Positions 3,753-5,286 of a DNA stretch of 11,632 nucleotides are shown here, in pieces. How positions within the stretch are numbered: position 1 is the stretch's first letter; each line of letters begins with the position of its first letter. Source of the DNA: Candidatus Woesearchaeota archaeon (GTDB lineage Archaea > Nanobdellota > Nanobdellia > Woesearchaeales > UBA11576); contig JAUVBP010000018.1 of the NCBI GenBank assembly GCA_030591125.1, forward strand, positions 1-11,632, in the 5' to 3' direction. The position numbers and the translations under genes were made by a program. The notes under the pieces were generated by a model. It had not been told where the DNA came from. It did not search any database and saw only the letters and a program-made list of their open reading frames with translations.

Positions 3753-4832
3753 TTATTTCCTTCTCTTCAGGATTGAGAAGACGACTACCGCTCCTGCTGC
3801 TATGAGCACAAGGTCTGTGAACAGGATTATCATGAGCCACTTGTTCTCAGCCCAGAAACCCTTCTGGGTATATGTGGTCCTTGGAGTCGCTACAGCTGTT
3901 GCCTGCCTTACCTGGGAAGCTGCAGATGTTGATGGCACAGTAGGCTGTGACACGACCTCTACAACTGTCGGCTGCTCTGGTTCCGGTTCTGGCTCAGGTT
4001 CTGGCTCTGGATCAGGCTCCTGCACAGCAGATGCACATTCACCTACCTCTACTGTGATGGTATCCTCAAGAGTCCTCTTGCTGTCATAGTAGATTGCCTT
4101 GACAAATATGGAATATAGGCCAGGCCTCAATTCATCGAGATCCAGGGTGTCGCTGAAAGTGTATTCATTGTCATCATCATCGATGTCTTCATACATCTCG
4201 AACTCAAGCCTCTTGTTGTAGTCAATCTCTGCACCGTCGATTATGAGCTCTATGTCCTCATCCTCCTCTCCGGTATTGATCATGTCAATAGCTAACCTGA
4301 CACTTCGCGTGCATGTGACTTTAGAAGGTACGATCTCTTTCCGCAGGAATCTTAACTCATGCTTTTCCTTGTCTACATCGACATCAAACTCAAGATGGGC
4401 AGTATGGATCGTCCCGTTCTGGTCTTCACCCTCAACATTAAGTGTCAGGATATACGACGCATCAGTCTCAAGCTTGAGAGGTATGTCAAATGAGATAGTG
4501 ACTGTCTTGTCCCTTCCAGGCCTGACATCAAAGTCATCTGAAGTCTCTTCAAGATCATCGCCATCGTCAACCTCTTCCAGGATCGCTTCAATCTCGATAT
4601 CCTCTATCTCTCCATTCTCGGTGCCGCTTTCGAAGAGGTTGGATACCTCTATCTTGAGCTCTAGTTTGGAATCAGGTATTATGTCTATAGATCCACCTGC
4701 TTCGTTTGCAGACTGCTTGTCATCATCGACTTCAATGATGACATCACTGAACTCCAGCATGTCTGCTGATGCGAGCGTAGATATCATTAGTAGAAATAAC
4801 GCTGCAATGAAAGATACTGCTATTCGGTTCAT
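3753..4832 (-). CDS. Secreted, C-terminally membrane-anchored beta-rich protein
   Basis: The chosen start is ATG at 4830-4832 (359 residues), not the longer frame opening at 4898. The ATG follows a GGGGTGG ribosome site by about 8 bases and directly begins a signal peptide: positive N-terminus, hydrophobic core, LASA cleavage-like site near residue 22. Residues 23-260 form acidic, beta-strand-rich segments like Ig/CARDB-type extracellular modules, with many Asp/Glu runs that could bind cations. A Pro-Glu repeat EPDPEPEPEPEPEPEQP (270-286) and a Ser/Thr/Ala/Val linker lead to a transmembrane helix (about 332-355) ending in KRRK, so the bulk should face outside. I do not recognise a specific family. 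A cell-surface or envelope-stalk role is inference from topology. It is flanked by large spacers and is probably its own transcription unit. Confidence 0.75.
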   Translation of the reverse strand: MNRIAVSFIAALFLLMISTLASADMLEFSDVIIEVDDDKQSANEAGGSIDIIPDSKLELKIEVSNLFESGTENGEIEDIEIEAILEEVDDGDDLEETSDDFDVRPGRDKTVTISFDIPLKLETDASYILTLNVEGEDQNGTIHTAHLEFDVDVDKEKHELRFLRKEIVPSKVTCTRSVRLAIDMINTGEEDEDIELIIDGAEIDYNKRLEFEMYEDIDDDDNEYTFSDTLDLDELRPGLYSIFVKAIYYDSKRTLEDTITVEVGECASAVQEPDPEPEPEPEPEPEQPTVVEVVSQPTVPSTSAASQVRQATAVATPRTTYTQKGFWAENKWLMIILFTDLVLIAAGAVVVFSILKRRK

Positions 4833-4868
4833 CTTAGTGTCCACCCCGTCAGTTATTAATTGACGAAT

Positions 4869-4880
4869 ATCATAAAAATC
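4869..4880 (-). promoter_or_regulatory. TATA-like element of the membrane-protein gene
   Basis: The minus strand reads CCGATTTTTATGATAT, with an AT-rich core about 42 bases before the ATG at 4832. This gives a predicted leader of about 20 nt. The element coincides with the distal arm of the 4873-4908 inverted repeat. Confidence 0.4.
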
Positions 4881-5034
4881 GGTCAACCATTCAATCATCC
4901 GATTTTTAGGACCCTCAAAATCACTTTATGATTTTGGGGGCGCCAAAACGCACCGCGTTTTGAGCGTGTCAAAAACGTCTAACAACGTTTTTGTGCATGA
5001 GTCATGCTGCACGGGCCATCTGTACCCCCTACAG
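4873..5034. repeat. Cluster of six consecutive inverted repeats
   Basis: The arms are: (1) TAAAAATCGG 4873-4882 with CCGATTTTTA 4899-4908, perfect 10 bp. (2) CCCTCAAAATCA 4912-4923 with TGATTTTGGGGG 4929-4940, 12 bp with one T:G. (3) CAAAACGC 4944-4951 with GCGTTTTG 4955-4962, perfect 8 bp, extendable by CGC/GCG across a bulged A. (4) CAAAAACGT 4970-4978 with ACGTTTTTG 4985-4993, perfect 9 bp. (5) GTGCA 4993-4997 with TGCAC 5008-5012, enclosing the palindrome GCATGAGTCATGC. (6) CTGTA 5020-5024 with TACAG 5030-5034. Stems 2-4 share a CAAAA/TTTTG scheme, with cores starting at 4916, 4944 and 4970. No open reading frame explains them. They could be a structured leader, a protein-binding array or a decayed mobile element. 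Confidence 0.75.
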
Positions 5035-5077
5035 AATCACCACTTTTTATCACTGATAGACAACAAAAGAATCCCTC

Positions 5078-5091
5078 AAAATATAAATATC
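5078..5091 (-). promoter_or_regulatory. Possible upstream TATA element facing the hairpin cluster
   Basis: The minus strand reads GATATTTATATTTT, a good archaeal TATA core. Transcription from here would start near 5055 and carry the whole hairpin cluster as a leader of more than 200 nt ahead of the membrane-protein gene. The AT-rich core could also be read on the plus strand. Confidence 0.35.
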
Positions 5092-5167: not shown

Positions 5168-5286
5168 ACGCAAATTCTGCCAGCCCCGCCTAGCGAGCTA
5201 ACAGGTAAAGGAACAGACAATAACGCAGTTGGGCAAAACGTAGCAGGCAGAGGATCGTCAGCGAGCGCGGTGCTGGCAGAATAAGA
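5168..5286 (+). ncRNA. Candidate small structured RNA (or MITE-like element)
   Basis: A 109-bp block is closed by a perfect inverted repeat, ATTCTGCCAGC (5174-5184) with GCTGGCAGAAT (5272-5282). Pairing continues as CCGC 5186-5189 with GCGG 5267-5270 after one mismatch. Inside, GCTAAC (5197-5202) can pair with GTTGGGC (5228-5234) using a G:U pair and a bulge, which would leave a multi-branched fold. AGCGAGC occurs twice (5192-5198 and 5260-5266). It is GC-richer than its surroundings, and a plus-strand TATA box ends 28 bases before it. No obvious U-tract follows on the plus strand. It lacks T-loop and 5S rRNA features, and I do not recognise a family. Terminal inverted repeats also suit a small non-autonomous element, though I see no clear target duplication. 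End points are approximate. Confidence 0.4.

Follow-up and report, generated by a model that had tools for sequence, protein, structure and literature searches.

The hairpin array in front of a surface-protein gene of this genome is one copy of a dispersed and mobile element that consists only of hairpins and carries no gene. The array occupies positions 4870-4997 of the window, that is, of the whole 11,632-nt stretch of DNA analyzed (contig C134), which belongs to a genome of 1.31 Mb that is 67% complete (G000). The mobility of the element is well supported. We consider it probable that the element is a non-autonomous single-strand hairpin transposon that depends for its movement on an IS200/IS605-like HUH transposase acting in trans.

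The genes of the window are presumably of archaeal type. The array was found between a ProRS gene and the surface-protein gene (3753-4832), both located on the minus strand. The surface-protein gene presents an ATG at 4832 and a signal-peptide-like start, and a TATA-like element identified by eye (5078-5091, minus strand) is its candidate promoter. The element sits within the 5' leader of this gene, between the TATA-like element and the gene start, where an earlier note on this DNA had placed the array. Four hairpins that do not overlap and whose arms are perfect over at least 8 bp were identified (4873-4908, 4916-4936, 4944-4962, and 4970-4993). None of 1000 dinucleotide shuffles of the 162 bp at 4873-5034 presented at least four such hairpins (shuffle mean of 0.04), and none of the 206 other 162-bp segments of the same DNA presented more than one. 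The earlier note had counted six hairpins in these 162 bp: four of them stand, whereas the fifth and the sixth are weaker, with arms of 5 and 6 bp (by eye; 4998-5035, no strand assigned), and lie wholly or mostly beyond the repeat unit, at its edge or outside it. Within 4998-5035, the minus-strand sequence CTGTAGGGGG is part of the older leader and was seen in G001 as well (by eye). The three stems built on CAAAA/TTTTG were recovered at 4916, 4944, and 4970, with steps of 28 and 26 bp in agreement with the spacing of about 27 bp noted before. The folding z-score of the region 4833-5056 was -5.4 for the minus strand and -7.6 for the plus strand, and none of 200 shuffles folded as well on either strand. 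No Rfam family matched the window at the gathering score.

The repeat unit (4870-4997) is 128 bp long and is composed of four directly adjacent hairpins, given here on the plus strand: a head followed by three further hairpins (4912-4997). The head hairpin (4870-4911) reads TC-A-TAAAAATCGG ... CCGATTTTTA-G-GA with an A.G mismatch near its foot, and the same plan was found in the other copies of G000. The second hairpin (4912-4940) reads CCC-T-CAAAATCA..TGATTTTG-GGGG. The third hairpin (4941-4966) presents the foot CGC, the arms CAAAACGC..GCGTTTTG, an unpaired A, and GCG. The tail hairpin (4967-4997), which constitutes the right end of the element, presents the foot TGT, the arms CAAAAACGT..ACGTTTTTG, an unpaired T, and GCA.

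Searching the genome with its own spacer revealed the array again, 86-87% identical, on other contigs, plus one short exact piece. A search of G000 for the core motif yielded 29 matches, against 7 for the reversed pattern, and we read a total of 24 copies in this genome: the window copy and 23 copies elsewhere. Two of these are visibly incomplete, one on C6, whose second hairpin is reduced to its 3' arm, and one on C15, whose head is altered. The copies share a common grammar. The head follows the plan TC-A-TAAAA...TTTTA-G-GA, with a loop of a few bases to about 100, and is followed by one to several side-by-side hairpins; in each of these, a 3-nt foot precedes CAAA...TTTG, and a single unpaired base separates the latter from the complementary foot. 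Copy lengths ranged from roughly 65 to 300 bp among those examined, which is too short to encode a transposase. Head and tail hairpins were found near both termini in the copies that we read, and the parser used for the wider set selects for these. The outermost bases (ATCAT/ATGAT) are weakly inverted in some type-1 copies; otherwise, the element has no terminal inverted repeats. One copy (L036, on contig C107 of G000) has its left arm within the 3' end of an open frame, which reads ..EEVIKIFRA-stop; we take this frame to be tRNA synthetase-like, presumably histidyl.

Of 59 genomes examined in the order, 17, G000 included, contain the core motif TTTTAGGAYRCCAAA; the reversed control gave one match in all 59 genomes together. 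Allowing at most one mismatch, the left-end motif was found 55 times in G009, 21 times in G007, and 5 times in G003 (control: 0), and these matches include a few copies that are not whole (e.g., L191 and L205). Many of the G009 copies are near-identical and lie in unrelated flanks. Across 84,980 species genomes, an exact pattern that covers only the copies with CAAAAA stems was found in 57 stretches. Based on their titles, these belong to Woesearchaeota (49), Nanoarchaeota (3), Nanoarchaeia (2), one unnamed archaeon, one Altiarchaeales, and one bacterium, and the latter two matches are possibly misbinned. Viral contigs presented no match to the exact pattern. Woesearchaeota are archaea mostly known from metagenomes. 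Several copies were located at contig ends (L084 in G031, L087 in G003, and L156 and L157 in G001), and metagenome assemblies of these archaea probably break at the repeat.

The arms of the element remain paired through compensatory changes. Across 35 distinct tails, 369 of 385 pairs (the foot and eight stem pairs) were kept, a percentage that leans upward because our parser demanded a complementary foot, six of eight stem pairs, and eight of twelve head pairs. In all 35 of these tails, the foot paired with the right end, as was likewise demanded by the parser. The changes of pair type are independent of this requirement: foot pair 1 alternates T-A with C-G, foot pair 2 alternates G-C with A-T, and stem pairs farther from the foot present up to four Watson-Crick types. 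The A.G mismatch of the head was kept in 32 of 39 distinct heads. The earlier remark that the stems vary and stay complementary holds.

The element inserts cleanly between two pre-existing bases. Five empty sites resolved at the sequence level (those of L149, L212, L140, L142, and L070) each indicated clean insertion without target duplication. The empty site of L149 is locus L176 of G007 (90.6% identity over 309 nt) and that of L212 is L264 (95% over 180 nt), whereas for L140 and L142 the empty sites are other copies of the repeats that these elements interrupt. L070 sits at the center of TGAGCA|TGCTCA, the palindrome of another hairpin family, and this junction is uninterrupted at several loci of G007 and G009. 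For 14 further sites of G009, the joined flanks were compared to G007: three matched across the junction without the element, one presented both flanks with unrelated DNA between them, four matched on one side only, and six did not match. No occupied site in G007 was revealed by any of the 14. Flank duplications with an anchored score of at least 6 were observed for five of 59 copies, relative to 0.12 expected. Only one of the five, L149, has an empty site, and there the duplication is a direct repeat that was already present before insertion, which argues against a fixed target duplication; the other four (L124, L163, L166, and L168) have no empty site and count against our model. A MITE of a DDE transposon, with terminal inverted repeats and target duplication, is at odds with the five empty sites, none of which presented a duplication.

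The type of foot is linked to the bases that flank the insertion. In a set of 93 copies, the base preceding TCAT (-1) is A in 41 of 44 copies with a TGC foot and G in 34 of 34 copies with a CGC foot, and the base following the element (+1) is T in 85 of 93 copies. Copies with a CAC foot follow this rule poorly (8 A, 5 G, and 1 T). In a wider parse of 131 rows, the -1 base was A for TGC feet in 62 of 73 rows, and G for CGC and CAC feet in 36 of 38 and 11 of 19 rows, respectively; no rows were dropped, and at least four of them (with heads CCCTAAAGGGC) are misparses that depress the TGC count. The rows are not independent, because G009 and G007 supplied most of them; for TGC and CGC feet, the singletons found in other genomes mostly conform to the -1 rule. 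In the same parse, all 38 CGC rows have T at +3, and 65 of the 73 TGC rows have A there. At the four empty sites of TGC or CGC type, the -1 base and the +3 base were both already present in the target, and in these two types the end of the element and the target share a dinucleotide (AT or GT). The window copy (junctions at 4869-5000, plus strand) has A at -1 (4869), T at +1 (4998), and A at +3 (5000), like most copies with a TGC foot. All feet of the 131 rows are TGC, CGC, CAC, or TAC, and none is GTAG or CGTC, the tags of REPs.

By analogy with IS200/IS605 elements, we infer a mode of movement for this family. The element would move as folded single-stranded DNA, and a HUH Y1 transposase of the IS200/IS605 type, acting in trans, would recognize the folded element. 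The foot of 3 nt that precedes the tail hairpin would serve as a guide: it would pair with the right end of the element, and its first base would fit the target base that precedes the insertion point. The window copy would have landed in this way in the 5' leader of the surface-protein gene. In IS200/IS605 elements, the cleavage site base-pairs with a guide located 5' of the hairpin foot, and insertion leaves the target in the left flank (PMC5934647, PMC6006769); IS608 and ISDra2 are reported to prefer the template of the lagging strand as a target (PMC6006769). Unpaired stem bases matter for recognition (PMC8266576). An element that inserts without duplication, is read by its structure, and carries a short guide-like foot fits this mode. 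The preference at +3 shows that the target is also constrained 3' of the insertion point, which differs from the plain IS608 rule. The second hairpin of the window copy (CCTCAAAATCA...TGATTTT) was found again downstream of a TnpB gene in the congener G001 (L300); the genus yielded no other TnpB gene. Within 1.18 Mb of examined DNA (overlaps counted), matches to this hairpin were limited to copies of the element and to the site downstream of this TnpB gene, where the head and tail hairpins had no such match. Matches to Y1 were present in G007 and G009, and none was detected in the four genomes of the genus (67-93% complete). A motif scan at 20 of 35 Y1 matches revealed no head-tail pair around the gene that would constitute an autonomous partner, and the same was observed at five of five TnpB loci. 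Direct reading of the Y1 loci L115, L121, and L108 likewise revealed no such pair. The sequence GTCATAAAAATC, beside the Y1 gene of L115 (G007), looks like the start region of that gene and was not counted as an element end. We hold the mobility firmly and the enzyme loosely, because the genus presented no Y1 match, none of the transposase loci examined lies between such ends, and the 3' preference is unusual.

Two other explanations attribute the hairpins to a function in expression. The earlier note had suggested that the array could be a long structured leader of the surface-protein gene; as RNA, such a leader would regulate this gene. Its location between the TATA-like element and the start codon and its folding, far better than that of shuffles on both strands, are consistent with this proposal, but the array is missing before the same gene in all nine relatives searched and the same repeat family is found at 23 other places of the genome. 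The gene itself was matched in nine of nine relatives, and in each of them the 350 bp preceding it contained at most one hairpin with arms of at least 8 bp, relative to four in the window. The compared place is the same, because six of these relatives (G001, G003, G006, G007, G008, and G009) have an upstream gene with a ProRS-like end. The spacers of G003 and G005 presented two and one short motif matches, respectively (such as TCATAAAA or TTTTAGGA), without an array. In the congeners, the TATA region and the G-rich end of the leader are kept (by eye); a sequence similar to the TATA-like element, TTATTTATAT, is located at the corresponding place in G001, G002, and G003 (by eye). Since the array is absent from relatives that keep both parts, it lies inside an older leader and does not belong to it. 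A leader RNA as a conserved function is thus already contradicted, and regulation of this kind seems to us very improbable, while the element may have a co-opted effect on the surface-protein gene in this one species. The note had named a match to a transposon end as evidence against its own proposal, and the array in effect behaves as a transposon. It would be just as surprising if the copies were transcription terminators or 3'-UTR elements that spread by serving genes. Several copies do provide a stop codon: the TAA of CATAA closes open frames of 57-353 codons on C211, C166, C6, C200, and C93 (five of 24 copies, those checked). However, the window copy and the C15 copy lie upstream of genes on the other strand, and near-identical G009 copies with clean insertion sites fit mobility.

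The remaining alternative concerns the mover. The element might be displaced by another enzyme that acts on folded DNA, such as a tyrosine recombinase that acts as on integron attC sites, or an unknown recombinase, with recombination at a shared N^T core. The dinucleotide shared by the element end and the target in TGC and CGC copies, the constraint at +3, and the genus without a Y1 match are all compatible with such an enzyme. Matches to the integron-integrase model below its cut-off, probably Xer-like proteins, were found in 16 of 19 genomes, but the same kind of matches occurred in all 14 control genomes and in neither G000 nor G002. The cut-off (TIGR02249) was passed in none of the 19 genomes, and IS110 transposases were found in 0 of 10 genomes; both results speak against this alternative. 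The match of the second hairpin to the hairpin downstream of the TnpB gene also argues against this alternative, which we regard as unlikely, if far less so than the leader or the terminators. Similarly doubtful is a further reading, in which the target of a hairpin transposon of Woesearchaeota would be set by a three-base guide within the element and read on both sides of the insertion point. Its mover would then be neither a known Y1 nor an IS110 or integron recombinase, and a second layer of hairpin elements would insert into the first. A transposon moved by an IS200/IS605-like enzyme remains our preferred reading.

The element is itself a target of other repeats. In 17 of 20 examined stretches of G009, the 3' arm of the head (GATTTTTAGG) is split by a 54-bp double hairpin, TGTCAG...TGAGCATGCTCA...CTGACA. 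The same split was observed in L184, L211, and L212, of which L184 and L212 coincide with two of the 17 stretches. This nested insert is clean, with no arm bases gained or lost, and L207 presents a different insert in the same head arm. The hairpin family TGTCA..TGAGCATGCTCA..TGACA inserts into the first family and vice versa (L184, L211, L212, L223, L070, and others in G001, G007, and G009). A sequence similar to GTATTTGTTTAGC recurs beside several copies in G009 flanks (L126, L137, L190, and L216, with near variants at L128 and L133) and is probably yet another repeat. The spacer of the window also contains a second, unrelated dispersed structured repeat (5177-5281, no strand assigned), which we refer to as family B. 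Its core, CCTAGCGAGCT..CGCAGTT..CAGCGAGCG, is conserved, whereas the end stems vary between copies and stay complementary. Nine of 18 predicted pairs changed on both sides among the aligned copies (10 of 11, with C146 left out). Family B was found at eleven sites of G000 (the window site and L006-L008 and L312-L318), as well as in G001 (L158), and it had no Rfam match.

This kind of element is already known, and the family is apparently new. In open-licence literature on PATEs, IS608, REPs, and the repeats of Woesearchaeota and DPANN, we found no description of this hairpin family or of its target rule. The PATEs (palindrome-associated transposable elements) of Haloquadratum walsbyi (PMC3119063) are likewise too short to code, carry palindromes near their ends, produce no target duplication, have divergent copies, and serve as targets of other small mobile repeats. 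In contrast to PATEs, the hairpins of the present element extend to the very ends on both sides and are arrayed in varying numbers, the target preference extends to both sides of the insertion point, the link to IS605 ends relies on one module only, and the hosts are Woesearchaeota rather than haloarchaea. The same paper describes SMR-A short mobile repeats that insert into PATE palindromes in Haloquadratum. Our nested TGTCAG..CTGACA insert resembles them in its inverted ends, its lack of duplication, and its location inside the palindrome of a host element; the likeness is one of plan, and the insert is 54 bp long, against about 110 bp for SMR-A. Dispersed hairpins, some with a mismatch or bulge, and a short foot motif are also found in the REP/BIME/REPIN systems with TnpA-REP (PMC8266576, PMC3733652). 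Unlike REPs, the feet of our element are not GTAG or CGTC, its head and tail hairpins differ, and no REP-type transposase was found beside a copy. At the ends of IS608 and other IS200/IS605 elements (PMC5934647, PMC6006769), too, a guide 5' of the foot contacts the site of cleavage, and these elements insert 3' of a short target that the left flank retains. Unlike IS608, the present element has no transposase, its guide is 3 nt long, its head hairpin stands at the very left end, and its target preference includes the 3' side.

In this order, whose genomes are small, some genomes contain tens of copies of a hairpin parasite, which has invaded other mobile repeats as well as gene ends and a gene leader. 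A genus that possesses copies but no recognizable transposase raises the question of what moves them. The link between the type of foot and the target base constitutes a natural test of guide-directed insertion.
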